From Streptomyces sp. HUAS CB01 (lineage in GTDB: Bacteria; Actinomycetota; Actinomycetes; Streptomycetales; Streptomycetaceae): a DNA stretch of 64,000 bases. A program made the translations under genes and the position numbers. Positions 5,468 to 28,368 of this stretch are shown here, piece after piece (positions within the stretch are counted from its first letter, which is position 1; every line of letters begins with the position of its first letter). The stretch spans positions 2,297,001 to 2,361,000 of the forward strand of contig NZ_CP129137.1 in the NCBI RefSeq assembly GCF_030406905.1. The letters are read 5' to 3'. A model generated the notes under the pieces. It did not search any database, was not told where the DNA came from, and saw only the letters and a list, made by a program, of their open reading frames with translations.

Positions 5468-6190
<723 letters not shown>

Positions 6191-6223
6191 GGTACCGCAC
6201 CCGTCATCCCCTAGCATCGCGAC

Positions 6224-7195
6224 GTGCCGTACGACCTGAACCAGCCGCCATCCGGCCAGCACCGGCCCCGCCGTCTCCCGCCCCTGGCCCGGGGCGGGGC
6301 GTTCCTCACGATCGCCGCGCTGACGGCGGTGACGCTCTCCGGGTGCGGCGGTTCGAGCGGCCCCGGCGCCGCCCCCGTACCCGGCGGGCCGGAGGCGACG
6401 GGAGCCACGGCGTCCGCGGCTCCGTCCGCTTCCGCCCCCACGGCCGGCGGCCCCAGGACACCCGGGGAGTCGGGCACTCCGGGGACACCGTCGGACGCCA
6501 AGCCCTCCACTCCCGCCAGGGGCCCGCTCGCCGGGAAGGTCGTCGTGATCGACCCGGGGCACAACCCGGGGAACTTCCGCCACGCCCGCGAGATCAACCG
6601 GCTCGTGGACATCGGGACGAACCGTAAGGAGTGCGACACCACGGGCACGGCCACCAACGACGGTTACACCGAGGCCGCATTCACCCTCGATGTTTCACAC
6701 CGTCTTCGCACCCTGCTGGAGAAGCAGGGCGCAACGGTGCGATTCACCCAGGACGACGACCGGCCGTTCGGTCCCTGCGTGGACGAGCGGGCCCGGATCG
6801 GCAACGAGGCCGCCGCCGACGCCGCGGTCTCGATCCACGCCGACGGCTCGGGCAGCGGCAACCGCGGCTTCCATGTGATCCACCCCGCCCTGGTCGAGCG
6901 CGGCGCCGCCGACACCAAGGCAATCGTCGGCCCGTCCCGGGAACTGGCCGAGCGCATCGCCGGGAAGTTCGTGCGGGCCACGGGCAGCGCACCCTCCAAC
7001 TACGTGGGCGGCGGCACCGGGTTGGACGAGCGCGGGGACCTCGGGGGACTGAATCTGTCGACCGTTCCCAAGGTGTTCATCGAATGCGGGAACATGCGTG
7101 ACGCGAAGGACGCGGCCCTGCTGACGAGTTCGCAGTGGCGTCAGAAGGCGGCGCAGGGGATCGCCGAAGGCATCGGCAGCTACCTGCTGGGGTAG
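6224..7195 (+). CDS. N-acetylmuramoyl-L-alanine amidase, Amidase_3 family, exported
   Basis: A 323-residue cell-wall hydrolase cleaving the MurNAc-L-Ala bond of peptidoglycan. The N-terminus has an Arg-rich start, a hydrophobic stretch and TLSGCGGSS, a plausible lipobox, so it is probably a lipoprotein. A Pro/Ser/Thr/Gly linker (about 45-100) precedes the catalytic domain. The zinc ligands and catalytic Glu are visible in VVIDPGHNPG, YTEAAFTLD, AVSIHADGSG and KVFIECGNM. The start is GTG at 6224. It stands after the methyltransferase on the same strand. Confidence 0.88.
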   Translation: MPYDLNQPPSGQHRPRRLPPLARGGAFLTIAALTAVTLSGCGGSSGPGAAPVPGGPEATGATASAAPSASAPTAGGPRTPGESGTPGTPSDAKPSTPARGPLAGKVVVIDPGHNPGNFRHAREINRLVDIGTNRKECDTTGTATNDGYTEAAFTLDVSHRLRTLLEKQGATVRFTQDDDRPFGPCVDERARIGNEAAADAAVSIHADGSGSGNRGFHVIHPALVERGAADTKAIVGPSRELAERIAGKFVRATGSAPSNYVGGGTGLDERGDLGGLNLSTVPKVFIECGNMRDAKDAALLTSSQWRQKAAQGIAEGIGSYLLG

Positions 7196-7387
7196 ACCGG
7201 GCATCGGACCTACCGGCCGGGGCGGACGGGACGGGCGATAGATTCGTCTCCGCCGGGGACGGGGGCCGCACACCGGCTTCCACCGGCACCCGTACGATGG
7301 GGCCACCCCCGAGCTTCCGCGCCGTGCACCGCCGACCGGCGGCACCGACGACCGCCACGACGAGACGCAACCGACTAAGGACTACAC

Positions 7388-8182
7388 GTGAACATCCGCT
7401 CCCTCACTCGAGGCGATGGCGTGGTGATCGGAGCAGCGGTGGTGCTGTTCATCGCCTCGTTCCTCGACTTCGTCAGCGTCGACTGCCCGCGCGGCATCGA
7501 CTGCTCCTCGGCGGACCTGCCGAACGCCTGGGACTCGCTGGGCACGGTGATGTCCATCTACCTCGCCGGGATCATCGCCGCGGGGCTGATCATCGTCGGC
7601 CGCGCCATGCCGGGGCGCAAGGTCCTCGGCCTGGACATCGCGCAGTTCGGCGTCGCCCTGAGCGTCTTCGCCCTCTGGACCATGTTCTGGACGATCATCG
7701 ACATCACGGGCGACGCGGGCGCCGGCGCGATCCTCGGCCTGCTCGGCACCCTGCTGCTGGCCGCGGGCGCGATCGCCACTCCGCTCGTCCCCGCCCTCAA
7801 GGCCCCCCTGGTCGGCGCGCCCAAGCCGCAGACCCCGCAGCCCTACGGCGCCCAGCCGCAGGGCGGTTACGGCTACCCCGGCGCCCAGCAGCAGCCCTAC
7901 GGCGGCCAGCCCGGGCAGCAGCAGCCGTACGGGGGCCAGCAGCCCGGCCCCGCGCAGGGGCAGCCGCAGGGCGGCCCGGCCCCGGAGTTCTCGCCGTTCT
8001 GGTTCGCGGTGCCGGTGGCCCGGCCGCTGTACGCGGAGGACGGCTCCCCGACGCCGATCGCCGAACTGGCGCCCGGCACCTGGTACCTCGCGGTCGACCA
8101 GCGCGGCCCCGCCCTGGTGGCGCAGACGCAGGACGGCCGGCGCGGCGTCCTGCAGGACACCACGGGCATCCAGCGCGGCTGA
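7388..8182 (+). CDS. Four-helix membrane protein with Gln/Pro/Gly-rich linker (DUF5336-like)
   Basis: A 264-residue protein with about four transmembrane helices in residues 12-140, then a low-complexity linker (about 150-205) of repeated PYG, GQQQ and QPQGG units, then a C-terminal soluble segment with ELAPGTWYLAVDQRG. The layout resembles the DUF5336 proteins common in Streptomyces. Two Cys (VDCPRGIDCSS) lie in the first external loop and may form a disulfide. The function is unknown. A terminator follows directly. Confidence 0.7.
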   Translation: MNIRSLTRGDGVVIGAAVVLFIASFLDFVSVDCPRGIDCSSADLPNAWDSLGTVMSIYLAGIIAAGLIIVGRAMPGRKVLGLDIAQFGVALSVFALWTMFWTIIDITGDAGAGAILGLLGTLLLAAGAIATPLVPALKAPLVGAPKPQTPQPYGAQPQGGYGYPGAQQQPYGGQPGQQQPYGGQQPGPAQGQPQGGPAPEFSPFWFAVPVARPLYAEDGSPTPIAELAPGTWYLAVDQRGPALVAQTQDGRRGVLQDTTGIQRG

Positions 8183-8208
8183 CCCCGTCCCGCCCGGCGC
8201 ACAGCGCG

Positions 8209-8234
8209 GCCCCTCGCCCTTCCGGGCGGGGGGC
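8209..8234 (+). terminator. Hairpin terminator
   Basis: GCCCCTCGCCC and GGGCGGGGGGC pair over 11 bp around a ttcc loop, 26 bases after the membrane protein stop. It has no U-run, as is usual in Streptomyces. Confidence 0.65.
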
Positions 8235-8265
8235 TGTTGCCGTACAGTCGCCCCTGCACAGCGAA

Positions 8266-8280
8266 CTGACGGAGCGTCAG
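8266..8280. promoter_or_regulatory. Second sterol-gene palindrome, copy 2
   Basis: CTGACGGAGCGTCAG is a perfect 6-3-6 inverted repeat 24 bases before the start of the F420-type oxidoreductase. It is the best-formed of the four similar 15-mers in this window and probably an operator overlapping the promoter. Confidence 0.6.
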
Positions 8281-8304
8281 AACGCCGGAGAGGGGGCTGG
8301 GGTC

Positions 8305-9315
8305 ATGCGGCTCGGACTCGCACTCGGCTACTGGGGGCGCGGTCCTGACCCCGCGCAGACCGAACTCGCCGTGGAGGCGGAGCGACTCGGCTACGACTCC
8401 GTGTGGACGGCGGAGGCATGGGGCTCGGACGCGTTCACGCCGCTCACCTGGATCGCCGCGCGCACGAAGCGGATCCGGCTCGGCACGGCGGTGGCGCAGA
8501 TGGCGGCCCGTACGCCCACCGCCACCGCCATGCACGCGCTCACGCTCGACCATCTCTCGGGCGGGCGGATGCTCCTGGGCCTCGGCCTGTCGGGGCCGCA
8601 GGTCGTCGAGGGCTGGTACGGGCGCCCGTTCCCGAGGAGCCCGCTGACGGCGACGCGGGAGTACGTGGACGTCATCCGTCAGGTCCTGCGCCGCGAGGGG
8701 CCCGTGGAACTCGACGGCCGCTTCCATATGCTCCCGTACACCGGGGAGGACGGCACCGGCCTCGGCAAGGCGCTCAAGCCCATCACCCACCCTCTGCGCG
8801 CCGGACTGCCGGTGCTGCTGGGCGCCGAGGGGCCGAAGAACATCGCCCAGACGACCCGGATCGCGGACGGCTGGCTGCCGCTGTACTGGTCGCCGCTGCG
8901 GACGGACGTCCACGAGGCGTCGCTCACGGGCCTTCCGCCGGGATTCATGATCGCGCCGATGGCCCGCGCCCACGTCTGCGACGACGTCGCCGAGGGGCTG
9001 CTTCCGGTCAAGGCGATGCTGGGCTTCTACATCGGCGGCATGGGCCACGCCGCGCGCAACTTCCACGCCGATCTGATGGCGCGCATGGGCTACGAGCCGG
9101 AGGCCCGGCACATCCAGCGGCTGTTCGCCGAGGGCCGTCGCGAGGAGGCGGTGCTCGCCGTCCCCGACTCCTTCGCCGACGAGATCTCGCTCGTCGGGCC
9201 GCGGGAACGCATCGCCGAACGGCTGGAGTCATGGCGCAAGGGCCCGGTCACCGACCTGCTCGTGACCGCGCCGGACCCCCGCACCCTGAGGGTCCTGGCG
9301 GAGCTGAACGGCTAG
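8305..9315 (+). CDS. LLM-class F420-dependent oxidoreductase
   Basis: A 336-residue luciferase-like TIM-barrel protein. It starts MRLGLALGYWGRG and carries family blocks LGYDSVWTAEAWG, RIRLGTAVAQMAARTP and LDHLSGGRMLLGLGLSGPQ. Such enzymes use reduced or oxidised F420 as hydride carrier. Mycobacterial sterol regulons contain related F420 enzymes, which, with the shared 15-bp palindrome upstream, suggests a step in sterol or acyl-CoA catabolism; the substrate is unknown. The ATG at 8305 has GGAGAGGGGG upstream. It stands alone, with a 405-bp gene-free stretch after it. Confidence 0.85.
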   Translation: MRLGLALGYWGRGPDPAQTELAVEAERLGYDSVWTAEAWGSDAFTPLTWIAARTKRIRLGTAVAQMAARTPTATAMHALTLDHLSGGRMLLGLGLSGPQVVEGWYGRPFPRSPLTATREYVDVIRQVLRREGPVELDGRFHMLPYTGEDGTGLGKALKPITHPLRAGLPVLLGAEGPKNIAQTTRIADGWLPLYWSPLRTDVHEASLTGLPPGFMIAPMARAHVCDDVAEGLLPVKAMLGFYIGGMGHAARNFHADLMARMGYEPEARHIQRLFAEGRREEAVLAVPDSFADEISLVGPRERIAERLESWRKGPVTDLLVTAPDPRTLRVLAELNG

Positions 9316-9720
9316 CCGGGCCCTGTCCGCACGACGGCGCCGGCGGACCCCGACCGGGCCCTGACGGCCCCCTCGGGCAGCCGCATGGCCAGGCCGTGGC
9401 CGGAAGGGTCCACCGGCCCGGCACGGCACCTCGCCGCGTCGTCGCCACACCCGAGAAATCCGGTACGAGGGCGATCCTCCGCCGTGCGAGGCACCGCACC
9501 GGACGCCGGGAAGCTCCCGGCCGACCCTTCCGGCGACGGCACGTGGCCGTGTCTGACAAGTCGCGCCCGGCTCGCGACGCCTGGCACGCGCACTCGCTAC
9601 GTCGTCGGAGTCGTCCGAGTACGCCCCGTACGAGGACGACCCTCCGCCTTGCGATTGCACGCACCAGACGCCGCGAGCCCCGCCCTGCGGGCTGGACCGG
9701 CGCTATGTGCCAGACACGGC
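9316..9720. other. Gene-free interval with repeats
   Basis: These 405 bp hold no convincing gene. Two related 48-base segments (9461-9508 and 9626-9673, roughly four-fifths identical, both with tacgagg and cctccgcc) form a degenerate direct repeat. An 11-base inverted pair, GGCCGTGTCTG at 9545-9555 and its complement at 9711-9721, encloses the second copy. The pair may act as a bidirectional terminator between the convergent genes on either side. Confidence 0.5.
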
Positions 9721-10179
9721 CTAGAGGCGCCCACCGGTCATCCGGGTCACCGGGCCGTGGCCGCTGCGCTCGGAGCGCCGGCCCGCGAGGTAGGAGACCG
9801 CGCCCAGGGCCGTGGCGCCGGCCGTGGCGCCCGCCGCGATGAGCTTGCGGGCCTTCAGGACCGTCCACGCGGTCGTGGCCACGGACGCCACCTGCCCGGC
9901 GGCCGAACCGGCCCCCTTGAGGGCGGTGGTGGCCACGGAGCCCGCCGCGGTCGCGGCGCGTCCGACGCCGCTGCCCGCCGACTTGGCGGCGCGTGCCGCA
10001 CCGCTCCCCGCGTCCTCGGCGGCACGGCCGGTGGCCCTGCCCGCCGATTCCGCCTTCGCCGCGGTGCTCTCCGCGGCCTTCGCCGAGGACTCCTTGGCCT
10101 TGGCGGCGGTCGCCTTGGTCGCCTTGGTGGCACGGGTCGTCGTGCCGCTTCCGTTGTTGTTCGCGCTTGAGTTGGTCAT
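9721..10179 (-). CDS. Ala/Lys-rich protein of low complexity
   Basis: A 152-residue protein dominated by Ala, Lys, Thr and Gly. Residues about 12-60 (RATKATKATAAKAKESSAKA) look helical and basic, the middle has repeated AGSG and AGSVA segments, and the end has a possible membrane stretch around LIAAGATAGATALGAVSYLAG. The ATG at 10179 gives a natural start MTNSSANNNGSG, but upstream starts are open to 10275 and the ribosome site is weak. No family is recognised. It follows the lipoprotein-like gene on the same strand after 126 bp. Confidence 0.5.
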   Translation of the reverse strand: MTNSSANNNGSGTTTRATKATKATAAKAKESSAKAAESTAAKAESAGRATGRAAEDAGSGAARAAKSAGSGVGRAATAAGSVATTALKGAGSAAGQVASVATTAWTVLKARKLIAAGATAGATALGAVSYLAGRRSERSGHGPVTRMTGGRL

Positions 10180-10305
10180 GGCGTTCGAATTGCCGCTTCT
10201 GCCGGACACAAACGGGCCGGTGTCCCGCGGCCCGTGAGCCGGGCCGTGTTCGGGCGCGGAGCGCGGCCGGCCCACGAACGGGCGCGGCCCGCGGAACCGT
10301 GCCGG

Positions 10306-10884
10306 TCAGCCGCCGCTCAGCTGGGTGGCCGACGGTACCTTCTCCTTCACCACCGCGCCGGCGCTCCGGCCCGCGTCCTTGACCTGGTTGATGACGTTCT
10401 CGAAGGCGCCGACGTCGGCGTCGCCCACCTGTCCCTTGCGGATCTTGGAGCCGAGGCCCTTCAGGGACTCGATGCCCGCCGTGACCGGCGCGATCGCCTT
10501 CGAGAGCAACGGGTCGCCCTTGGCGTTGTCCGCCGCCGCCTTGAGCCTGTTGTACGCGAACGCGCCCGCCAGGCCGGCCTTCACGAGCGTGACCTTCCGG
10601 CCCTCCGCACCGTTCTGGAACTTCCCGGCCCGGTACGGCTTGACGATCCACTGGTAGATCGCGCCCGCCGCGAGTCCGGCGTTCGCCACGAACCGGGTCT
10701 TGGCGAACTTCTGCGCCTCCACCGTGTCCGTCGGCGTGGCCGCCGCGTCCGCCTCGTCCTCCCCGCCGCACGCCGCGGTGGCGCCGAGCAGCGCGCAGCA
10801 CAGCAGCAGGGCGACGGCCGCCCGGCGCAGCCGCCGGCCCGTCCTGGTGCGTGCCCGGCGGGCGGTCGTTGCCGGAGTCGGCAT
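10306..10884 (-). CDS. Putative lipoprotein of unknown function
   Basis: A 192-residue exported protein. It has a basic start, a hydrophobic core VALLLCCALLGATAACGG and a probable lipid-modified Cys. The mature part contains helical segments such as GLAAGAIYQWIVKPYRAGKF and KVTLVKAGLAGAFAYNRLKA, followed by SLKGLGSKIRKG. AGGAGG lies seven bases before the ATG. A similar protein in other actinobacteria has no assigned function to my knowledge. It diverges from the small membrane protein at 11066. Confidence 0.7.
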   Translation of the reverse strand: MPTPATTARRARTRTGRRLRRAAVALLLCCALLGATAACGGEDEADAAATPTDTVEAQKFAKTRFVANAGLAAGAIYQWIVKPYRAGKFQNGAEGRKVTLVKAGLAGAFAYNRLKAAADNAKGDPLLSKAIAPVTAGIESLKGLGSKIRKGQVGDADVGAFENVINQVKDAGRSAGAVVKEKVPSATQLSGG

Positions 10885-11065
10885 GGCAGTCCTCCTGGCC
10901 TCCCCGAGCTCCTGACCTCCCCGGGTCCGGCCTCCCGGGTCCGGGCCTCCCCGGACCGCCGCTCCCCGAGGCCTCTCGCGCCAGCGTCACCCAGCATCGG
11001 CCGTTGCGCCACTCGGGCGATTCCGTCCCGGGTTTGGTTCAACGAAGAACGGCAATCCGGTTGCC

Positions 11066-11359
11066 ATGTCTCCCCGCAGAAGTGGTAGCAACCAGGCGGC
11101 GACGATCATCATGGTGGTCGCCGATGTGATGGCCGTCATCATCGGCCTGTGGATCCTGATGTACCTGCTGGACGCGAACCGCGCCAACGACCTGGTCATC
11201 CTGATCCGGGACGTGGCCGGCTGGCTCGCCGGCTGGTCGCACGATCTGTTCACGTTCGACGAGGCGTGGGCGCGGGTCGTGGCGGGCTACGGCCTCGCCG
11301 CGGTCGTGTACCTCTTCGTCGGACACGCCGTGGCGGGCCGGCTGCGCCGCCACAGCTGA
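11066..11359 (+). CDS. Small membrane protein
   Basis: A 97-residue protein with a hydrophobic helix at about 12-35, an amphipathic middle (ILIRDVAGWLAGWSHDLFTF) and a second helix at about 72-90, ending in an Arg-rich tail GRLRRHS. It has no known domain. The ATG at 11066 begins MSPRRSGSN. It is convergent with the alpha/alpha-barrel gene, and a hairpin lies between them. Confidence 0.65.
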   Translation: MSPRRSGSNQAATIIMVVADVMAVIIGLWILMYLLDANRANDLVILIRDVAGWLAGWSHDLFTFDEAWARVVAGYGLAAVVYLFVGHAVAGRLRRHS

Positions 11360-11402
11360 CCCCCTCCCCCGCGCGGTCGTCGCACCGACGCACCTGGGCC
11401 GG

Positions 11403-11451
11403 GTCCGACAGACAGCCACGCCCTCCGGGCGGACGGCGCCATCTGTCGGAC
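11403..11451. terminator. Bidirectional hairpin between convergent genes
   Basis: GTCCGACAGA (11403-11412) and TCTGTCGGAC (11442-11451) pair perfectly over 10 bp around a GC-rich loop. The hairpin lies between the stops of the small membrane protein and of the alpha/alpha-barrel gene. Confidence 0.55.
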
Positions 11452-11456
11452 ACCGC

Positions 11457-12551
11457 CTACCGGCAGCACTCCGGTTCGAGGCCGCGCGGAAGCCGCTCCC
11501 CGCCGAACACCGCGGTGGTCGCCTCGTCGCCCCCCAGGGCGGCCACCGCGAGCAGCAGCGAACCCGCCGTCCAGGTGGTGAGTTCCTCCGGCCACACGGC
11601 GCGGTTGCCCTCGAAGACGTAACCCGTCCAGTACATGCCGCCGTCGGCGCGCAGGTGCTTGATGGACTGCAGGATCTCCAGCGCCCGGTCGGACTCCCCC
11701 ACCGCCCAGAGCGCCAGGGCCAGTTCGCAGCTCTCGCCGCCCGTCACCCACGGGTTGGGCAGTACGCACCGCACCCCGAGCCCGGGGACCACGAACGCGT
11801 CCCAGCGCGCGTCGATCCTGGCCTTCGCCTCGTCGCCGGTGAGGGCGCCGCCGAGGACCGGGTAGTACCAGTCCATCGAGTACTGCGACTTGTCGAGGAA
11901 GCGGTCCTGGTGCCGGCGGATCGCGTGCCCGAGGGCTCCGGTCGCCAACTCCCAGTCCGGCTGCGGCTCCTCGCGCTCCTCGGCGATGGCGAGGGCGCAG
12001 CGCAGCGCGTGGAAGATCGACGAACTCCCGGTCAGCAGCGCGTCGTCGACCGCCGCGCCGCCGTCCTCGGGTGCCTCGCGCTTCCAGCCGATCTGGCCGC
12101 CGGGCTGCTGGAGCCGGAGCACGAACTCGATCGCCGCGTGGACGGACGGCCACATCCGGTCCAGGAACACGTCGTCCCCGGTCGCCAGGTAGTGGTGCCA
12201 GACGCCGACGGCCAGGTAGGCGCAGAAGTTGGTCTCGCGGCTCCGGTCGGTGGGCCGGTCGGCCTCGCCGTCGTGGTACGCGGCGTACCAGGAGCCGTCG
12301 TCGTTCTGATGGCGTGCCAGCCACTCGTAGGCGCGGGCCGCCGCGGTGTGCTCGCCCGCCGCGTCCAGGGCCATCGCGGCCTCGGTGTGGTCCCACGGGT
12401 CGAGGTGGTGTCCCCGGAACCAGGGGATCGCCCCGTCCTCGCGCTGGACGGCGAGGATGCCGGCGACGGTCTCGGCGGCCTGTTCGGCGGTGAGGACCCC
12501 GGGCAGGACGAGATGCTCGGTACGCCCTTGGCGGCGCCAGGGCACGGTCAC
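11457..12551 (-). CDS. Prenyltransferase-like alpha/alpha-barrel protein
   Basis: A 364-residue cytoplasmic protein made of helical repeats of the kind annotated as prenyltransferase/squalene oxidase repeats or glycoside-hydrolase-type barrels: QREDGAIPWFRGHHLDPWDH, RHQNDDGSWYAAY and SIKHLRADGGMYWTGYVFEG. No terpene-cyclase DxDD motif is seen. The GTG start at 12551 overlaps the methyltransferase stop by 4 bp (GTGA), so translation is coupled. With the methyltransferase and glycosyltransferase it forms a three-gene unit, which suggests modification of a glycan or glycolipid. The reaction is unknown. Confidence 0.7.
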   Translation of the reverse strand: MTVPWRRQGRTEHLVLPGVLTAEQAAETVAGILAVQREDGAIPWFRGHHLDPWDHTEAAMALDAAGEHTAAARAYEWLARHQNDDGSWYAAYHDGEADRPTDRSRETNFCAYLAVGVWHHYLATGDDVFLDRMWPSVHAAIEFVLRLQQPGGQIGWKREAPEDGGAAVDDALLTGSSSIFHALRCALAIAEEREEPQPDWELATGALGHAIRRHQDRFLDKSQYSMDWYYPVLGGALTGDEAKARIDARWDAFVVPGLGVRCVLPNPWVTGGESCELALALWAVGESDRALEILQSIKHLRADGGMYWTGYVFEGNRAVWPEELTTWTAGSLLLAVAALGGDEATTAVFGGERLPRGLEPECCR

Positions 12552-18348: not shown

Positions 18349-18535
18349 AAATGCCAACCGAATGAACAGATACCAGTTCCCGCCGGAGGAGTCCACGGCC
18401 GGAACCCGCCCCCGGGAAGGAGGCGCGCGGACACGGATCCGATCCCGGAGGCGACCTCGGACGCGGACCGACACCACCGGCCGCGACCCCGCACACCGCC
18501 GAACCCTTTGCAATAAGGTCGACTTGGGCGACCAT

Positions 18536-18549
18536 TGGAACGGGTTCTC
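18536..18549. promoter_or_regulatory. Probable KstR-type operator before the metallo-hydrolase
   Basis: TGGAACGGGTTCTC keeps AAC and GTT with the right spacing and differs from TnnAACnnGTTnnA only at the last base. It lies 34 bases before the metallo-hydrolase start. Confidence 0.5.
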
Positions 18550-18582
18550 GTTCCTGGGCCCGGCCGCGAGGATGGGGAGCCG

Positions 18583-19623
18583 ATGACGCGGGTGACGGAG
18601 CACGGCGGCGGTGTGTGGTCCCTCAAGGTCCCCATCCCGGACAACCCCCTGGGCCACACCCTGGTCCACGTCCTCGACACCGGCCGCGGGCCCGTCCTCG
18701 TCGACACCGGATGGGACGACCCCGCGTCCTGGACGGAGCTCTCGGACGGCCTCGCCGAGCTCGGCCTCGCGCCGGCCGACGTCCACGGCGTACTCGTCAC
18801 CCACCACCACCCCGACCACCACGGGCTGTCCGGCAGGGTCCGCGAGGCGTCCGGCGCGTGGATCGCGATGCACGCGGCGGACATCGCCGTCGTCCGCCGC
18901 ACGCGGGAGGCCCGGCCCGGGGCCTGGCTCGACTACCTGGCCGGGAAGCTCGCCGCCGTCGGCGCACCGGAGGAGCACCTCGCCCCGCTGCTCGCGGCCC
19001 GCGAGAGCGGCCGGGCGCGGACCCTTCCCGGGCTGCGGGCGGCCCTCCCCGACCGCGAGATCGCACCCGGCGAGCTGCTGGACCTCGCCGGGCGGCGACT
19101 GCGGGCCGTCTGGACTCCCGGCCACACGCCCGGCCATGTGTGCCTGCACCTGGAGGAGGACCATCCGGCGAACCTCCCCGGCCGGGGCCGCCTGTTCTCC
19201 GGCGACCATCTGCTCCCCGGCATCAGCCCCCACATCGGCCTGTACGAGGATCCCGACGACTCCACGGTCACCGACCCCCTCGGCGACTACCTGGACTCCC
19301 TGGAACGCGTGGGCCGTCTCGGCGCCGCCGAGGTGCTCCCGGCGCACCAGCACCCCTTCACCGACGCCACGGCCCGGGTCCGGGAGCTCCTCGCCCACCA
19401 CGAGGAGCGGCTGACCGGGCTGCTGTCCCTCCTCGCCGCACCGCTCACCCCCTGGCGGCTGGCCGAGCGCATGGAGTGGAACCGGCCGTGGGACGAGATC
19501 CCCTACGGCTCCCGCACCATCGCCGTCTCGGAGGCCGAGGCCCATCTGCGGCGCCTGGTGAAGCTGGGCCGCGTGGAGGCGGTGCCGGGCAGCGACCCGG
19601 TGGCGTACGTCGCGGTGGGCTGA
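18583..19623 (+). CDS. Metallo-beta-lactamase-fold hydrolase
   Basis: A 346-residue MBL-fold protein. The metal site is clear: THHHPDHHG at residues 73-81, then WTPGHTPGHVC and LFSGDHLLPG, and a late His in LPAHQHPF. The C-terminal 80 residues (from about 265) look like a winged-helix-type cap, as in LACTB2-like and thioesterase-like members. The ATG at 18583 has GGGGAG upstream; a TTG at 18535 is within the operator. The KstR-like box suggests it belongs to the sterol regulon, perhaps as a CoA-thioester or lactone hydrolase. That is inference. Confidence 0.82.
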   Translation: MTRVTEHGGGVWSLKVPIPDNPLGHTLVHVLDTGRGPVLVDTGWDDPASWTELSDGLAELGLAPADVHGVLVTHHHPDHHGLSGRVREASGAWIAMHAADIAVVRRTREARPGAWLDYLAGKLAAVGAPEEHLAPLLAARESGRARTLPGLRAALPDREIAPGELLDLAGRRLRAVWTPGHTPGHVCLHLEEDHPANLPGRGRLFSGDHLLPGISPHIGLYEDPDDSTVTDPLGDYLDSLERVGRLGAAEVLPAHQHPFTDATARVRELLAHHEERLTGLLSLLAAPLTPWRLAERMEWNRPWDEIPYGSRTIAVSEAEAHLRRLVKLGRVEAVPGSDPVAYVAVG

Positions 19624-19892
19624 GCCGGCGGGGTGCGGGCGACGGCGGGCCCGGACCGCACCGGGGCCCAGGTGAACCGGACTCTCACGCCGGGGATGAC
19701 GGACCCGCCGGGATCCGCACGGACCGGACCCGTCGCGGAAGCCGCCGGGCTGAACCGAGCCACGCCCGAGCCGGAGCGCCACCCCGGTACCGCCGGGTCC
19801 CGCCAAGATCCACCGCGAGGCACGGTGGGCACGGCCGCCGGGGCTCATGCCGCACCCGGCCGCCCGTCCCGAGGGACGGGGATTACGGGCCG
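19624..19892. other. Gene-free interval before the riboswitch
   Basis: About 270 bp of GC-rich sequence after the metallo-hydrolase, with no supported gene. The promoter of the cobalamin operon must lie towards its right end, but no clear -10/-35 pair stands out. Confidence 0.4.
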
Positions 19893-20085
19893 GTAGAGTG
19901 TGCGAGTCGTCATCACACCCGTACGGGGGGAAGCCGGTGCGAATCCGGCGCTGACCCGCAGCCGTGAGCCGCCGTCGCAGGCGGTGAGTCGGAATGCCCC
20001 GTACCGGCCGTGACCGGCTCGTGCCATCGGGACCGGCCCGCTGGCAGGCACCGTCGAGGAATACGGGGCCGGAGCCTGGTACCTC
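19893..20085 (+). promoter_or_regulatory. Cobalamin (B12) riboswitch
   Basis: The conserved core is easily read: AAGCCGGTGCGAATCCGGCG, then CTGACCCGCAGCCGTGA (19931-19967), GAGTCGGAATGCC near 19986, and the B12-box region GGGGCCGGAGCCTGG near 20064. Adenosylcobalamin binding is expected to fold the leader and block expression of the five-gene transport operon, whose first start codon is 45 bp further on. Confidence 0.92.
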
Positions 20086-20129
20086 AGCGTGCCTGTGCCC
20101 GGCTCCCCGCAGGAGAGGCCCAGCCCGCC

Positions 20130-21389
20130 ATGTCCGTTCGCCGCAGCGCAGCAGCGCTCGCCGCCGCTTCCGCCGTGCTCTGCGCGGCCGCTGCCCCCGC
20201 GGCGACGGCCGCCCCCACGCCCTCCCCCTCGGCCGCGCTCCCGGCCGGGCTGTACGGCACGAAGGACCCGACCTACGACGGTGTGTGGCGGCAGTCGCTG
20301 GCGCTGCTCGCCCAGGACGTCGTCAAGACCGTGCCCGCCGAGCAGGCCGTCGACTGGCTCACCGGGCAGCAGTGCGACAACGGCGGCTTCGCCTCCTACC
20401 GTGCCGACGCGTCCCGGCCGTGCGACGCGAAGACGATGCTGGACACCAACGCCACCGCCGCCGCGGTGCAGGCCCTGCGTGCCCTCGGCGGCCACGGGGA
20501 CGCCGTGGACAAGGGCCTCGAGTGGCTGAAGTCGGTGCAGAACGAGGACGGCGGCTGGAGCTACAACCCCGGCATGCCCTCCGACGCGAACTCCACGTCC
20601 GTCGTGATCGGCGCCTTCGCCGCGGCGAAGGCGCGGCCCGGCGAGGTGAAGTCGAAGAGCGGCAGGAGCCCGTTCGACGCGCTGGTCACGTTCGCCGTGC
20701 CGTGCGCGGACAAGACCGGCGGCGGCGCGTTCGCCTACCAGCCCGACAAGACCGGCAAGCTGCTCGCCAACGGCGACGCCACCGCGGCCGCCGTGCTCGC
20801 CGGGCTGGGCCGCGGACTGGTCGTCTCCGGCCCGGAGCCGGACGGTTCCCCCGCCGCCTGCGACTCCCCGGCGAAGGCCACCCCCGAGCAGTCGGCCCGC
20901 AACGGCGCCGCGTACCTGGCCAGGACGCTGGCGAAGACCGGCCACCTGGACTCGCCGCCGATGCCCGGCGCCACCGACCCGGCGCCGCTGCCCGACTTCG
21001 GCAACACCGCGGACGCGGTCCTCGCGCTCTCCGCCGCCGGGCACGGCGACAAGGCGGACAAGTCGGTCCAGTGGCTGGAGAAGAACTCCGCCGCCTGGGC
21101 GAAGGACGGCGGCCCGGCCGCGTACGCGCAGCTGATCCTCGCCGCGCACGCCCACGGCGACGACCCGCGGGACTTCGGCGGCGCCGACCTCGTCCGGCAG
21201 CTGAACGCGACCGGTCCCGCGCCGGTCTCCACCACCGCGCCGCCCGCCCCGAGGGCGCAGGGCGAGGCCGGCGAGGAGCACAAGGGCGGCGACAGCGCCG
21301 GCATCTGGTGGATCGTCGGGGCCGGTCTCGCCGCCGGAGCCGGCATCGGCATCCTGATCAGCGGCCGCAGGAAGAACAAGCAGCAGTGA
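20130..21389 (+). CDS. Secreted, anchored alpha/alpha-barrel protein resembling intrinsic factor
   Basis: A 419-residue exported protein. A signal peptide (about 1-30, ending PAATAAPT) is followed by an alpha/alpha barrel of prenyltransferase/terpene-cyclase type repeats (LTGQQCDNGGFASY, SVQNEDGGWSYNPG), a Pro/Ala/Gly linker and one C-terminal membrane helix (IWWIVGAGLAAGAGIGILIS) with a basic tail. No cyclase DxDD motif is seen. The barrel fold, export and riboswitch control recall the B12-binding alpha-domain of transcobalamin and intrinsic factor. A role in catching cobalamin at the cell surface is inference. Its stop overlaps the next start by 4 bp. Confidence 0.8.
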   Translation: MSVRRSAAALAAASAVLCAAAAPAATAAPTPSPSAALPAGLYGTKDPTYDGVWRQSLALLAQDVVKTVPAEQAVDWLTGQQCDNGGFASYRADASRPCDAKTMLDTNATAAAVQALRALGGHGDAVDKGLEWLKSVQNEDGGWSYNPGMPSDANSTSVVIGAFAAAKARPGEVKSKSGRSPFDALVTFAVPCADKTGGGAFAYQPDKTGKLLANGDATAAAVLAGLGRGLVVSGPEPDGSPAACDSPAKATPEQSARNGAAYLARTLAKTGHLDSPPMPGATDPAPLPDFGNTADAVLALSAAGHGDKADKSVQWLEKNSAAWAKDGGPAAYAQLILAAHAHGDDPRDFGGADLVRQLNATGPAPVSTTAPPAPRAQGEAGEEHKGGDSAGIWWIVGAGLAAGAGIGILISGRRKNKQQ

Positions 21390-22069
21390 TACGCAGGCGG
21401 CTGACCGCGCTCCTCCTCGTGCTCGGCGCCGTGCTGACGGTGCCGGGCACGGCGGGACAGGCCCACGCGGCCGGTTACCGGTACTGGTCGTTCTGGCAGT
21501 CCGGCGGCGCGGCCTGGGCCTACGCCACCCAGGGGCCGGCGACGGCGAGGCCCGCCGACGGCACGGTGGACGGATACCGCTTCTCCGTCAGTTCCGACTC
21601 GCAGGACTCGGCGAAGCCGCGTACCGCTCCCTCCTTCTCGGAGCTGTGCGCGGACACGCCCGCGAAGCCCGGCACCAAGCGGGTCGGCGTCGTGGTCGAC
21701 TTCGGCACCGGGGCGGACGCCCCGTCCGGTGAACGGCCCCCGTCCACGCCGGCGTCCGGCTGTGCCGTGGTCCCCTCGGACGCGACCAGCGCGGAGGCCC
21801 TGGCGGCGGTGGCCAAGCCCCTCCGCTACAACGCGGACGCGCTGCTGTGCGCGATCTCCGGATATCCGAGGACGGGCTGCGGCGAGCAGGTCTCGGCCGG
21901 GGACCCGGCGCCCGACGAGCCCGGCGCGTCCTCGCCGTCGGCCGGGAAGACCGCCGGGACGGCCGGGCGGGCGGGCGACGAGGGCCCCTCTCTCGGGCTC
22001 TTCGCCGGTATCGCCGCCGTCCTCGCGCTGGGCGGGGCGGCTTTCCGGCAGTCGCGTCGCCGCGGATGA
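21386..22069 (+). CDS. Secreted, anchored partner protein in the B12 operon (SCO2322-like)
   Basis: A 227-residue protein with a signal peptide (LTALLLVLGAVLTVPG, cleavage near QAHA-AG), a soluble domain of about 140 residues starting GYRYWSFWQSGGAAWAYATQ and holding four Cys (two in ALLCAISGYPRTGCGE), a Gly/Ser/Ala-rich linker and a C-terminal helix LGLFAGIAAVLALGGAAF with RQSRRRG tail. It resembles the Streptomyces family named after SCO2322, whose function is not known to me. GTGA overlaps join it to both neighbours. It may be the second half of a surface cobalamin receptor. Confidence 0.72.
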   Translation: MIRRRLTALLLVLGAVLTVPGTAGQAHAAGYRYWSFWQSGGAAWAYATQGPATARPADGTVDGYRFSVSSDSQDSAKPRTAPSFSELCADTPAKPGTKRVGVVVDFGTGADAPSGERPPSTPASGCAVVPSDATSAEALAAVAKPLRYNADALLCAISGYPRTGCGEQVSAGDPAPDEPGASSPSAGKTAGTAGRAGDEGPSLGLFAGIAAVLALGGAAFRQSRRRG

Positions 22070-23493
22070 CCGGTCCGCCTGTGCCCGCGCCGCCGGACGG
22101 TCCCGAGCAGCCGGCCGGACTCCGGCTGCTCGGCGGCGTCCCGCGCCCCCGGCCGGCCGGCCCGGAGCCGGGCACGCACCCGGGCCCCGGAAGCGGGCGG
22201 AGCGACGGGAGCGGTGCCGTGCGCGAACGCGGTGGGAACGGACGCGCGGAAGGCGAACGCGGTGCGCGCGAAATCGGTGCGGGCCGTCCCGGGGAGACCG
22301 AACGCGGTGCGGGCCGGCCCGGGGAGGGCCGGCTCGGTGAGAGCGGGCGCCGTGGGTTCGGCCGTGCCCCGCGGCAGCGCCGGCCGCTCGGCGGGGCCCT
22401 GCGCGCTCCGCGCGCCGCCCGGAGCAACGCGCTGCACGCCGGCGCCTGGTGGGTCTGGGCGCTCGGCCTCGCCACCGCCGCCTCACGGACGACCAACCCC
22501 CTCCTCCTCGGGATGCTGGTGGGCGTCGCCGGGTACGTCGTGGCGGCCCGGCGCACCGACGCGCCCTGGGCCCGTTCGTACGGCGCCTTCGTCAAGCTGG
22601 GCCTCGCCGTGATCGCCGTCCGGCTGGTGTTCTCCGTCGCCCTCGGTTCACCCGTCCCGGGCACCCACGTCCTGGTCACGCTGCCCGAGGTGCCCCTGCC
22701 GGACTGGGCGCAGGGCGTCAGGATCGGCGGCCGGGTGACGGCGGAGCAGGTGGTGTTCGCGCTGTACGACGGGGCGAAGCTGGCGACCCTGCTGATCTGC
22801 CTCGGCGCGGCGAACGCGCTCGCGAACCCGGCCCGGCTGCTGAAGTCGCTACCGGGTGCGCTGTACGAGGCGGGGGTCGCGGTCGTCGTCGCCATGACGT
22901 TCGCACCGAACATGGTCGCCGACGTGTTCCGGCTCCGTACCGCGCGGAGGCTGCGGGGGCGGCCGACCGGCGGGGTGAAGGCCGTCCTGCAGATCGGGTT
23001 GCCGGTCCTGGAGGGGGCGCTGGAGCGGTCGGTCGCGGTCGCCGCGTCCATGGACGCGCGCGGCTACGGCCGTACCGCGCGGGTGCCGCCCGCCGTGCGG
23101 CACACCACCACCGCGCTCACCCTCGGCGGGCTGCTCGGTGTGTGCGCCGGTTCGTACGGGCTGCTCGCCGCGGAGGGCGCGGGGTACGGACTCCCCGTGC
23201 TGCTGGGCGGGTTCACGGCGGCGCTCGGCGGGCTGTGGCTCGGTGGCCGGCGCCAGGTCCGCACCCGCTACCGCCCGGACCGGTGGGGTCCGCGGGCCTG
23301 GCTGGTGGCGGGTTCCGGCGTCGTCGTGGCGGCGCTGATGATCCGCGCGGGTGCGTACGAGCCCGCCGCGCTGCATCCCGGTGTCGTACCCCTGACCGCG
23401 CCGGCCCTGCCGCTGTGGCCCGCCGCGGCCGTCCTGGTGGGCCTGCTGCCCGCGTTCGTCGCCCCCGTGCCGCCGAAGGAGCCCTCGTCATGA
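22066..23493 (+). CDS. ECF transporter T component (CbiQ-like) with long disordered N-terminus
   Basis: A 475-residue protein. The C-terminal 350 residues form an EcfT membrane protein with about six hydrophobic segments and the coupling-helix motif SMDARGYGR, which docks on the ATPases. The first 115 residues are unusual: a Gly/Arg/Glu/Pro-rich disordered extension with repeats such as GAGRPGETERGAGRPGEG. EcfT proteins are usually about 250 residues. The ATG at 22066 overlaps the previous stop (ATGA). With the A-A and S proteins it completes an ECF vitamin importer, here for cobalamin by riboswitch context. Confidence 0.85.
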   Translation: MTGPPVPAPPDGPEQPAGLRLLGGVPRPRPAGPEPGTHPGPGSGRSDGSGAVRERGGNGRAEGERGAREIGAGRPGETERGAGRPGEGRLGESGRRGFGRAPRQRRPLGGALRAPRAARSNALHAGAWWVWALGLATAASRTTNPLLLGMLVGVAGYVVAARRTDAPWARSYGAFVKLGLAVIAVRLVFSVALGSPVPGTHVLVTLPEVPLPDWAQGVRIGGRVTAEQVVFALYDGAKLATLLICLGAANALANPARLLKSLPGALYEAGVAVVVAMTFAPNMVADVFRLRTARRLRGRPTGGVKAVLQIGLPVLEGALERSVAVAASMDARGYGRTARVPPAVRHTTTALTLGGLLGVCAGSYGLLAAEGAGYGLPVLLGGFTAALGGLWLGGRRQVRTRYRPDRWGPRAWLVAGSGVVVAALMIRAGAYEPAALHPGVVPLTAPALPLWPAAAVLVGLLPAFVAPVPPKEPSS

Positions 23494-25418
23494 TCCGCTT
23501 CGAGAACGTCTCGGTGACGTACGGCGACGCCGGGGGGCCGCCGACGGTCTCCGGGGTGGACCTCACCGTCCCTGAGGGCGAGCTCGTCCTGCTGGTCGGG
23601 CCCTCGGGAGTCGGCAAGTCGACACTGCTGGGGGCGGTCTCCGGGCTGGTGCCGCACTTCACGGGCGGCACGCTGCGCGGCCGGGTGACGGTCGACGGGC
23701 GCGACACCCGCACCCACAGGCCGCGCGAACTCGCCGACGTCGTCGGCACGGTGGGTCAGGATCCGCTCGCGCACTTCGTCACCGACACCGTCGAGGACGA
23801 GCTGGCGTACGGCATGGAGTCGCTGGGGCTGGCGCCCGACGTGATGCGCCGCCGGGTCGAGGAGACGCTGGACCTGCTGGGGCTGGCGGAGCTGCGCGAC
23901 CGTCCCCTCTCGACCCTCTCGGGCGGGCAGCGGCAGCGGGTCGCGATCGGGTCCGTGCTGACCCCGCACCCGAAGGTGCTGGTCCTCGACGAGCCGACGT
24001 CTGCGCTCGACCCGGCCGCGGCGGAGGAGGTGCTGGCGGTGCTGCAGCGGCTCGTCCACGACCTGGGGACGACGGTCCTGATGGCCGAGCACCGGCTGGA
24101 GCGGGTGGTGCAGTACGCGGACCGGGTCGTCCTGATGCCCGCGCCCGGCGAGCCCCCGGTGGCCGGCGCCCCGGCCGACGTCATGTCGTTCTCGCCCGTC
24201 CGCCCCCCGGTCGTCACCCTCGGCCGTCTCGCGGGCTGGTCCCCCCTCCCCCTCTCCGTCCGCGACGCCCGCCGCCGCGCGGGCGCACTGCGCGAACGAC
24301 TGGCGGGCGCGAGCGCGCCCGGCTCGCGCCCGCCGGGCGGTTCGGCGGGCGGGCCCGGTCACCCGCCGACGACCCGGACGTCCGCGCCGGCCGGCGCGGA
24401 CGCGGCCGGGGCCGCCCCCGAACCGAGCGGCACCTCGGCACCGCAGGCACCCCCAGCCGCGGGGCCGGGCACCACAGGAGCCCGCGCGGCCGCCGGGGGC
24501 CCCGCCGAGCGGGCTCCCGGCGCGGCGGAATCGGCGCGTGACGCTGCCGGCGCCGGTCGCGTTCGCCGGGCCGCCGGGGGACGCCGAGGGCTGGGCGCCC
24601 TCTTCCCGTGGGCCGGGCGACGGCGGTCGGCGCGGGGCGGGGAGCCCGCCGCGGAGGCCCATGACCCGGCCGTGCTCGCGGAGGTCACGCGCCTCGGGGT
24701 GCGGCGCGGACGGGTCGAGGCGCTGCGGCGGGTCGATCTGGTGGTCGCGCCCGGGGAGACCGTCGCGCTCATGGGCCGTAACGGCGCCGGGAAGTCGACG
24801 CTGCTGGGCAGCCTCGTCGGCATGGTCGAACCGGCGTCGGGGACGGTCCGGGTCGGTGGGCGCACGCCGCACCGCACCCCGCCGGCCCAGCTGGTACGAC
24901 GGGTCGCGCTCGTCCCCCAGGAACCCCGGGACCTGCTGTACGCCGACACGGTCGGGGCCGAGTGCGCCGCCGCGGACGCGGACGCCGGGGCCGTGCCGGG
25001 AACCTGCCGGGACCTGGTCTCCACGCTGCTCCCGGGAGTGGCGGACGACACCCATCCGCGCGATCTGTCCGAAGGGCAGCGGCTGGCGCTCGCCCTCGCG
25101 ATCGTGCTGGCCGCCCGCCCTCCGCTGCTCCTGCTCGACGAGCCGACCCGCGGTCTCGACTACGCGGCGAAGTCGCGGCTCGTCACCGTGCTGCGCGGTC
25201 TCACGGCCGAGGGCCACGGCATCGTGATGGCCACCCACGACGTGGAGCTCGCCGCCGAGATCGCGGACCGTGTGGTGATCCTCGCGGGCGGCGAGGTCGT
25301 GGCGGACGGCCCGACGGCCGACGTGGTCGTCTCGTCCCCCGCCTTCGCCCCCCAGGTCGCCAAGATCCTCGCCCCCCAGCCGTGGCTCACCGTCGCCCAG
25401 GTGGAGGCCGCCCTGTGA
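23490..25418 (+). CDS. ECF transporter fused double ATPase
   Basis: A 642-residue protein joining two ABC ATPase domains. Domain 1 has Walker A GPSGVGKST (about 37-45), signature LSGGQRQR and Walker B VLVLDEPTSALD. Domain 2, after a disordered Pro/Ala/Gly linker of about 130 residues, has GRNGAGKST, LSEGQRLALA and LLLLDEPTRGLD. Both sites look intact. It powers the EcfT/S complex from the cytoplasmic side. It starts with ATGA overlap after EcfT and its stop overlaps the S-component start. Confidence 0.92.
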   Translation: MIRFENVSVTYGDAGGPPTVSGVDLTVPEGELVLLVGPSGVGKSTLLGAVSGLVPHFTGGTLRGRVTVDGRDTRTHRPRELADVVGTVGQDPLAHFVTDTVEDELAYGMESLGLAPDVMRRRVEETLDLLGLAELRDRPLSTLSGGQRQRVAIGSVLTPHPKVLVLDEPTSALDPAAAEEVLAVLQRLVHDLGTTVLMAEHRLERVVQYADRVVLMPAPGEPPVAGAPADVMSFSPVRPPVVTLGRLAGWSPLPLSVRDARRRAGALRERLAGASAPGSRPPGGSAGGPGHPPTTRTSAPAGADAAGAAPEPSGTSAPQAPPAAGPGTTGARAAAGGPAERAPGAAESARDAAGAGRVRRAAGGRRGLGALFPWAGRRRSARGGEPAAEAHDPAVLAEVTRLGVRRGRVEALRRVDLVVAPGETVALMGRNGAGKSTLLGSLVGMVEPASGTVRVGGRTPHRTPPAQLVRRVALVPQEPRDLLYADTVGAECAAADADAGAVPGTCRDLVSTLLPGVADDTHPRDLSEGQRLALALAIVLAARPPLLLLDEPTRGLDYAAKSRLVTVLRGLTAEGHGIVMATHDVELAAEIADRVVILAGGEVVADGPTADVVVSSPAFAPQVAKILAPQPWLTVAQVEAAL

Positions 25419-26344
25419 ACACCGGCGACGCACCCGGCCGCCACGACCCGCGCGAACACCCCGGCCGAACCGACCACCACGACTCACACGCGCACCCCGG
25501 CCGGCTCACGATCGCGTCCCGGAGCGCCCGGCCCGTCCGCCTCGGCCCCCGCGCCGTCACCGCCCTCGCCCTCATCAGCGCGATCGGGGTCGTCGCCTTC
25601 GGCTGGCCGCTGCTCGCCGACGGGGACGCCGCCGTCGCCGGCCACGCCCAGGACGCTCCCTGGCTGTTCGCCGCCCTGCTCCCCCTCCTCGTCGGTGTGG
25701 TGGTCGCCACCATCGCCGACGGCGGCATGGACGCGAAGGCCGTCGCCATGCTCGGGGTGCTCGCCGCGGTCGGTGCGGCGCTGCGGCCGCTCGGCGCGGG
25801 CACGGCGGGGCTGGAGCCGATGTTCTTCCTGATGGTGCTGAGCGGCCGGGTCCTGGGGCCGGGCTTCGGCTTCGTCCTCGGCTCGGTGACGATGTTCGCG
25901 TCCGCGCTGCTCACGGGCGGGGTCGGCCCGTGGATGCCGTTCCAGATGCTCTCCATGGGCTGGTTCACGATGGGCGCGGGCCTGCTGCCGGGCGCGGACC
26001 GGCTCAGGGGCCGTGCGGAGCTGCTGATGCTCGCGGGGTACGGTTTCGCCGCGGCGTTCGCGTACGGCACGGTCATGAACCTCTACGGCTGGACGCTCGT
26101 GACGGGCCTCGCCTCCGGCATCTCGTTCCGGGAGGGTGCGCCGGTGGCCGAGAACCTGGTCCGCTTCGGCGCGTACGTCCTCGCCACCTCCCTCGGCTGG
26201 GACCTGGGCCGGGCGGTCCTCACCGTCGTCCTGACCCTCGCGGTGGGCCCGACGCTGCTGAAGGCGCTCCGCCGGGCGACCCGGCGGGCCGCGTTCGAGG
26301 CCCAGGTCACATTCGACCCGGCCAAAACCTCCCCGGAGGGGTGA
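25415..26344 (+). CDS. ECF transporter S component, probably cobalamin-specific
   Basis: A 309-residue integral membrane protein with a 45-residue His/Arg-rich cytoplasmic N-terminus and about six to seven hydrophobic segments (for example ALALISAIGVVAFGWPLLA and LFAALLPLLVGVVVATIADG). The small-residue-rich block SGRVLGPGFGFVLGSVTMFA is typical of ECF substrate-binding subunits. The GTG start overlaps the ATPase stop. Specificity for cobalamin is inferred from the riboswitch; the layout recalls CbrT-type B12 importers. It ends the operon. Confidence 0.85.
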   Translation: MNTGDAPGRHDPREHPGRTDHHDSHAHPGRLTIASRSARPVRLGPRAVTALALISAIGVVAFGWPLLADGDAAVAGHAQDAPWLFAALLPLLVGVVVATIADGGMDAKAVAMLGVLAAVGAALRPLGAGTAGLEPMFFLMVLSGRVLGPGFGFVLGSVTMFASALLTGGVGPWMPFQMLSMGWFTMGAGLLPGADRLRGRAELLMLAGYGFAAAFAYGTVMNLYGWTLVTGLASGISFREGAPVAENLVRFGAYVLATSLGWDLGRAVLTVVLTLAVGPTLLKALRRATRRAAFEAQVTFDPAKTSPEG

Positions 26345-26645: not shown

Positions 26646-27047
26646 TTGTCCCGCTCGCTGATCACCCGCATCTCCACCCGCAGCAAGTCCCTCGCCGCCG
26701 GTACCGCCGTGCTTCTGGGTGCGGCCGGCGCGGTCATGGGGACGACGTCGACGGCCTCGGCCGCGACGCCGCAGGAGATCGCGAAGCAGATGATGCCCGC
26801 CGCGCAGTTCCAGTGCTTCGACAAGATCGTCTCGCACGAGTCGAACTGGGACCACACGGCCACCAACGCCTCCTCCGGCGCCTACGGCCTGGTCCAGGCC
26901 CTGCCGGGCGGCAAGATGTCCTCCGCCGGCGCCGACTGGAAGACCAACCCGAAGACCCAGATCAAGTGGGGTCTGGACTACATGAACGAGCGCTACGGCA
27001 GCCCGTGCGGCGCCTGGAACTTCTGGCAGGCCAACCACTGGTACTGA
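26646..27047 (+). CDS. Small secreted transglycosylase-like protein
   Basis: A 133-residue exported protein. A signal peptide (SLAAGTAVLLGAAGAVMG, cleavage after STASA) is followed by an SLT-like lysozyme fold: FDKIVSHESNWDHTATN holds the likely catalytic Glu, and SSGAYGLVQALPGGKM and GLDYMNERYG complete the pattern. Two Cys may form a disulfide. It probably cuts peptidoglycan glycan strands during growth or germination. The start is TTG at 26646, since no ATG or GTG keeps the signal peptide. The two DosR-like boxes upstream hint at control by hypoxia or dormancy. Confidence 0.82.
   Translation: MSRSLITRISTRSKSLAAGTAVLLGAAGAVMGTTSTASAATPQEIAKQMMPAAQFQCFDKIVSHESNWDHTATNASSGAYGLVQALPGGKMSSAGADWKTNPKTQIKWGLDYMNERYGSPCGAWNFWQANHWY

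Positions 27048-27183: not shown

Positions 27184-28368
<1,185 letters not shown>

Follow-up and report, generated by a model that had tools for sequence, protein, structure and literature searches.

What do two secreted proteins, from families to which no function has been assigned, contribute to an operon that follows a cobalamin riboswitch and ends in an energy-coupling factor (ECF) transporter? The question is raised by a locus of Streptomyces sp. HUAS CB01 (contig NZ_CP129137.1), located in a stretch of 64,000 nucleotides (positions 2,297,001 to 2,361,000) referred to here as the window; feature positions are counted from its first letter. The operon is probably a B12-repressible corrinoid scavenging system, in which a split and rotated binder resembling transcobalamin and intrinsic factor feeds an ECF importer. 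Its elements are as follows.

19880..20016, + strand, cobalamin riboswitch aptamer RF00174 (cmscan 40.8 bits; E value, 7.1e-7 in 64 kb)
20130..21389, + strand, gene 1, secreted, membrane-anchored alpha/alpha toroid protein, SCO2321 family, 419 amino acids
21386..22069, + strand, gene 2, secreted, membrane-anchored beta-domain protein, SCO2322 family, 227 amino acids
22066..23493, + strand, gene 3, CbiQ/EcfT-like transmembrane coupling protein, 475 amino acids
23490..25418, + strand, gene 4, fused EcfA-A' ATPase with two ATP-binding cassette (ABC) domains, 642 amino acids
25415..26344, + strand, gene 5, ECF substrate-binding S component, 309 amino acids

A B12 riboswitch ahead of five overlapping genes had already been recognized from the letters alone (the sequence-only reading), and this was confirmed. 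The RF00174 match exceeds the gathering score of 31.5 bits and is the sole Rfam match at gathering score within the window, while each junction between 20130 and 26344 is an exact 4-bp overlap. The start of the riboswitch had been placed at 19893 and needed correction, as the match begins 13 bases earlier; the aptamer ends 113 nt ahead of the gene 1 start codon. Six RF00174 matches, including this one, were identified in the 8.1-Mb host genome. Folding of the leader RNA gave a z of −1.0, no better than shuffled sequences.

In the proposed scheme, genes 1 and 2 would each encode one half of a binder, gene 1 the toroid (alpha) half and gene 2 the beta-grasp (beta) half. Each half would be anchored in the membrane as a protein in its own right, and each is circularly rotated compared with the form found in distant relatives. 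On the outside of the membrane, a corrinoid would be clasped by the two products and delivered to the S component encoded by gene 5, which would itself be toggled with ATP by the products of genes 3 and 4, the CbiQ/EcfA-A' module. Once the cell held enough cobalamin, the riboswitch would shut the operon off.

Conservation was surveyed in 296 evenly sampled Actinomycetota genomes (the even sample), a class sample of 246 genomes from 103 genera and a genus sample of 121 genomes. In the even sample, the SCO2322 profile matched 40 genomes (10 over the cut-off) and the SCO2321 profile 59 (9 over the cut-off). SCO2322 was found in 92 of the 246 class genomes, representing 42 of the 103 genera, and SCO2321 (gene 1) in 116 of the 121 genus genomes. 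Regions were fetched for 55 relatives, for the other five riboswitches of the host genome and for 20 class genomes; the 55 and 20 loci were picked for gene 1 or gene 2 matches rather than at random, and related genomes are not independent. Most of the 55 loci, and 17 of the 20 from the class sample, have genes 3 to 5 next to a gene for the toroid or the beta-domain. As distant relatives repeat the identical gene set, the operon is not a chance arrangement.

A cobalamin riboswitch match within 1 kb on the same strand (E value, ≤0.001 for one genome) precedes 45 of the 55 loci, 22 of them at gathering score as counted from the listing, so that the conservation under B12 riboswitches that the sequence-only reading had proposed to survey extends to distant Actinomycetota. 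Among the other loci, a riboswitch match heads a longer operon containing DUF4430 in two (L103 and L124) and lies just beyond the fetched stretch in one (L126); L105 and L099 are without a match and both lie near a contig end, L075 has no match at the locus, L082 has a weak adenosylcobalamin (AdoCbl) match alone (E value, 0.27), and the last three, L108, L109 and L112, are Streptomyces loci with no match. In the 19 of 20 class loci scanned, 12 adjacent matches over gathering score were distributed among RF00174 (4), RF01482 (5) and RF01689 (3), with four further adjacent matches below it and none upstream of L179, L180 and L181. Since three riboswitch families precede the same genes, B12 control appears to have been maintained rather than inherited by accident. 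Four genomes (G134, G102, G166 and G284) have the toroid gene away from gene 2 and the transporter, with a separate riboswitch match for each part; the toroid itself is thereby linked to B12.

Gene 1 belongs to NCBIfam SCO2321_fam (NF053823; 607.5 bits, cut-off 300), and Pfam identified squalene-cyclase/prenyltransferase repeats (SQHop_cyclase_C / Prenyltrans). A signal-like N terminus and a C-terminal membrane segment were judged by eye. DxDD, the catalytic motif of squalene-hopene-type cyclases, was not found in gene 1, and D.DD[TS] occurs in 2 of 174 toroid-family sequences. The earlier description of a secreted, anchored alpha/alpha barrel with prenyltransferase-type repeats and without DxDD therefore stands. 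Additional toroid-like proteins were noted near two Streptomyces operons (L107, 12672-14390, and L109, 1-824); against the toroid profile they score 97 and 101 bits.

The evidence linking this toroid to B12 carriers comes from relatives in which it is fused to a second domain, in transcobalamin order, in five fetched loci. The AlphaFold model of one such protein, P0241, matched transcobalamin, haptocorrin and intrinsic factor over both domains in Foldseek (E values, 7e-10 to 8e-8), at a sequence identity of 12 to 15%. In this model a helix (387-394) and two strands (398-403 and 406-412) were located; P0241 is a normal-order homologue and not the window's gene 2. Because fused relatives match transcobalamin over both domains, gene 2 and its SCO2322 family are taken as the counterpart of the beta-domain. 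The arrangement typical of the transcobalamin family, a toroid followed by a beta-grasp domain in one chain, is present in the fused relatives; in the window the two are separate chains.

Gene 2 matched NCBIfam SCO2322_fam (NF040672; 221.3 bits, cut-off 85) together with GPS-CTERM (33.3 bits). Precomputed annotation assigns PF28005 to its relatives, and the local Pfam copy gave no match to gene 2; a PDB sequence search gave no matches and a PHROGs scan nothing useful. The Pfam DUF4430 profile (PF14478) matched neither gene 2, up to an E value of 1, nor anything else in its genome, and among distant relatives it matched 1 of 10 (E value, 0.48); gene 2 was consequently rejected as an ordinary DUF4430 protein. 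Profile-profile alignment of SCO2322-type and DUF4430 domains gave 63.5% probability and a P value of 6.8e-5 (hhalign with no shuffled control, using 25 of 30 DUF4430 sequences).

The order of the beta-domain halves was assessed with N- and C-half profiles (Nh and Ch) built from 39 normal-order domains and zero permuted sequences, and that of the toroid halves with profiles A and B. The halves were located in the window as follows.

20244..21212, + strand, toroid region of gene 1, halves A-B (A, 143.1 bits, residues 39-256; B, 82.9 bits, residues 218-361)
21479..21634, + strand, C-terminal half of the beta-domain, encoded first (W-x-Y-W ... G-x-v-d-G-W/Y part; Ch, residues 32-83, 42 bits)
21674..21883, + strand, N-terminal half of the beta-domain, encoded second (VVVD ... 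C ... LLCAI-G part; Nh, residues 97-166, 25 bits)

Gene 2 and all 120 of the 120 relatives listed have the order C-N. In 53 locus proteins, N-C was found in 43, C-N in nine (eight from the window's genus and one from G062) and N-C-N-C in one (L087); the 20 class loci comprised 16 C-N, two N-C and two that were not assignable. The four invariant cysteines of the normal-order alignment A1 and the four of A4 can be paired by eye. By these profile matches, the SCO2322 beta-domain of the window is circularly permuted. Loss of the outer halves from an N-C-N-C tandem leaves C-N and is the usual route to a circular permutant, and the permutation here may have arisen in this way. The order A-B was likewise found in the window toroid and 120 of the 120 relatives listed, and the 53 locus proteins comprised 39 B-A, 13 A-B and one unassigned, although toroid repeats cross-match and the assignment of single diverged proteins is less safe. 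The window toroid is rotated relative to the B-A form of distant relatives.

The tandem protein of L087 (G247, 8454-11282) carries a fused toroid, two tandem beta-domains and three cell-wall-binding CWB2 repeats, and is a predicted surface-displayed version of the toroid/beta pair. One Streptomyces genome (G171) has, besides its permuted operon (L091), a second locus (L090, ∼6134-12369) with a normal-order beta-domain, genes 3 to 5 and a toroid, with a DUF4430 match nearby and riboswitch matches on both strands.

At the cut-offs used, the 59 toroid-positive genomes included 36 with an SCO2322-type domain, 17 with DUF4430, 3 with both and 9 with neither, and iterated profiles identified an SCO2322-type domain in seven of the nine. 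Within these 59 genomes the two domains strongly tend to exclude each other (Fisher, 2.2e-5). There was no toroid match in 34 of 51 DUF4430 genomes; where both were present (16 of 17 genomes checked), toroid and DUF4430 were on one contig and strand, 1 to 5.1 kb apart, in 13 of 16. SCO2322-type and DUF4430 domains can be read as two versions of one beta-domain role.

The claim that genes 3 to 5 form a complete ECF transporter was borne out for two of its components, as gene 5 matched PF12822 ECF_trnsprt (33.7 bits, cut-off 30.7) and gene 4 has two ABC_tran stretches, its ECF_ATPase matches (285 to 288 bits) being under their equivalog cut-offs. For gene 3, CbiQ scored 16.6 bits, below the cut-off of 25; counterparts in the same position in three relatives exceed it (36.0 to 38.9 bits). 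An S-component-like membrane part is fused to a toroid in one chain in L103 (G218, 5754-7340), P0263 and P0264, with S-part scores near the Pfam cut-offs; these fusions suggest that toroid and S component meet.

CobI was looked for in 78 genomes selected by a match to gene 1 or gene 2; in part of these the operon was inspected in full. It was over the cut-off in 18 genomes and not in 60, of which 25 hold weaker matches taken as related methyltransferases. A B12-type acyl-CoA mutase was identified in 49 of the 60; eight of the 11 without one are small genomes of one family. To judge from gene content, a mutase without CobI over the cut-off fits scavenging. Scavenging without synthesis is not universal, as the window's genus is predicted to make B12. 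Three genomes of 1.3 to 2.2 Mb (L171, L172 and L186) carry an AdoCbl riboswitch with SCO2322-type and ECF genes, and no toroid gene, CobI match or acyl-CoA mutase was found in them.

Several observations weigh against the two-part binder. Structurally, the AlphaFold model of the window's gene 2 is poor (predicted local distance difference test score, 64) and matches no solved fold, so its predicted fold rests on homology; the two-domain matches of P0241 have root-mean-square deviations of 13 to 15 Å, and the domain orientation is therefore not reproduced; and squalene cyclases, ranked by Z, are the best fit to the toroid, slightly ahead of the B12 carriers. The structural match to intrinsic factor and transcobalamin, the fold class put forward earlier for gene 1, comes from the fused relative. 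A profile of 17 gene 5 relatives gave one chance match in the PDB and no known vitamin S component, CbrT included. In distribution, the exclusion of SCO2322-type and DUF4430 domains falls short of significance when all 296 genomes are counted (p = 0.11), and no riboswitch was identified even at an E value of 1 at three of nine Streptomyces loci (L108, L109 and L112), the core box being upstream of six when the window is counted (five of the eight others). The window genome encodes CobI (219 bits), making it a predicted B12 producer, and the genes scanned near its other riboswitches are those of a BtuFCD-type ABC importer (best models below cut-off), CbiM, CbiB and CobA, NrdA and CobN, so that another ABC importer is already under a riboswitch. 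Finally, of 57 genomes with a permuted beta-domain, 27 gave no toroid match, and in G401, among the 30 that did, the match is a short tail only; a two-part clamp cannot, then, be required everywhere. The idea of an extracellular cobalamin-capture device feeding an ECF importer retains its conserved, riboswitch-linked gene set and the resemblance of fused relatives to B12 carriers, and has to be restricted on this last point.

These absences also underlie a competing view, possible if rather doubtful, that gene 2 alone is the ECF receptor and the toroid an optional accessory (a store or a low-concentration clamp) instead of an obligate half. Loci in which a beta-domain gene leads directly into genes 3 to 5 with no toroid (L171, L172, L176-L179, L184 and L186) agree with it, as do the solo SLBB domains described in the available part of PMC1796856; however, gene 1 is present in nearly all genomes of the genus sample, toroid-beta fusions exist, unlinked toroid genes have their own riboswitches, and a Streptomyces-based profile could overlook a diverged toroid. 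It is unlikely that the same type of importer carries something other than complete cobalamin (cobinamide, another cobamide, a lower-ligand precursor or cobalt). By itself the riboswitch points to no more than repression of the operon by B12, and because the window genome makes its own B12 and has BtuFCD-type and CbiM loci, a cobalamin importer would be partly redundant there. Against this stand the transcobalamin-like two-domain match and the 60 genomes without CobI over the cut-off, which would need a finished corrin ring that a cobalt or lower-ligand importer would not provide.

That the toroid is a surface enzyme related to terpene cyclases or prenyltransferases, whose product or substrate the transporter would carry, is scarcely credible. 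Its best sequence and toroid-only structure matches are squalene-hopene cyclases, and profile A5 matched cyclases and not transcobalamin in the PDB by sequence, but the missing DxDD led to rejection of the toroid as a cyclase, TIGR hopene_cyclase scored 26 bits on gene 1, far under its cut-off of 431, and the toroid occurs fused to a transcobalamin-like beta-domain and alone behind B12 riboswitches. An artefact of frame, assembly or spurious profile matching is a very improbable source of the reversed half order in gene 2. The N-half match in the window is modest, yet C-N recurs in every relative listed and in nine fetched loci against 43 of normal order and the one tandem, the cysteines can be paired by eye, and the artefact was rejected because profiles from normal-order domains alone recover the C-N order. 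The corrinoid scavenging system thus remains the preferred explanation. Its fullest version, held with slightly more confidence than doubt, is that actinomycetes possess a doubly permuted, split intrinsic factor: the beta-domain would derive from a transcobalamin-type SLBB domain through a tandem N-C-N-C duplication that one distant fusion still displays, the toroid would have rotated separately, the halves would clamp a corrinoid at the membrane for the ECF transporter, and about half of the permuted-domain lineages would use the beta-domain alone.

Immediately upstream of the riboswitch, on the same strand, lies a Strvi_7410-family metallo-hydrolase gene (18535-19623; 674 bits). Past the operon end are a short protein with an aggregation-promoting-factor C-terminal domain (26646-27047; 135 bits), a thiolase (27184-28353, − strand) and a P450 (28609-29868, + strand).

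If correct, this proposal would give a function to two families lacking one (with the toroid in 116 of 121 genus genomes and gene 2 in 42 of 103 class genera), explain the B12 source of many B12-dependent actinobacteria without CobI, and make a close functional counterpart of human intrinsic factor accessible in a soil bacterium that is amenable to genetics. It would also provide a natural circular permutant with a probable duplication intermediate, in which the half order of a ligand-binding beta-grasp changed and the operon did not; in the available part of a beta-grasp survey (PMC1949818), circular permutation is named only for the E1 UFD domain. As far as the literature searched extends, with subscription journals outside its scope, the recognition of a beta-domain in the SCO2322 family, the permutation of this domain and the tandem form that one relative has, the rotation of the toroid, and the association with riboswitch and transporter across the phylum are new. 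Nothing relevant was found on SCO2321-SCO2325, and Burroughs et al. 2007 (PMC1796856) was the sole paper found on transcobalamin-like bacterial proteins.

Genes 1 and 2 are clear members of SCO2321_fam and SCO2322_fam, which, like PF28005, carry no function, and the part consulted of a Streptomyces lividans reannotation (PMC8079986) gives two cobalamin riboswitches, neither preceding these genes. The closest precedent, as presented in the sections available of Burroughs et al., is a set of secreted toroid+SLBB/DUF4430 proteins in operons with CbiO/CbiQ, predicted to be B12 scavengers of low-GC Gram-positives, planctomycetes and some archaea. The window shares with it a secreted toroid, an SLBB-type domain, a CbiO-like ATPase and a CbiQ-like protein, and many owners lack CobI over the cut-off; it differs in that gene 2 is permuted, unmatched by Pfam DUF4430 and preceded by a riboswitch, a word that does not occur in those sections. 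ECF-CbrT of Lactobacillus delbrueckii (PMC5997447) likewise combines an ECF module with a corrinoid S component, to which the window's S component has no sequence match in a PDB profile search; in the text available, transcobalamin appears only among the references. In acI actinobacteria, ECF modules that follow riboswitches were put forward as cobalamin transporters by Kang et al. 2017 (PMC5301498). These stand behind cobalamin/AdoCbl riboswitches in organisms without B12 synthesis, and extracellular proteins go unmentioned in the portion seen; L171, L172 and L186 are alike, with an SCO2322-type gene in addition. Compared with animal transcobalamin, haptocorrin and intrinsic factor, the window encodes a predicted binder made of two anchored, rotated proteins beside an ECF importer rather than a receptor, with very low identity and a different predicted domain orientation, whereas its fused relatives have the same secreted alpha/alpha toroid followed by a C-terminal beta-grasp domain and match these carriers in structure over both domains.

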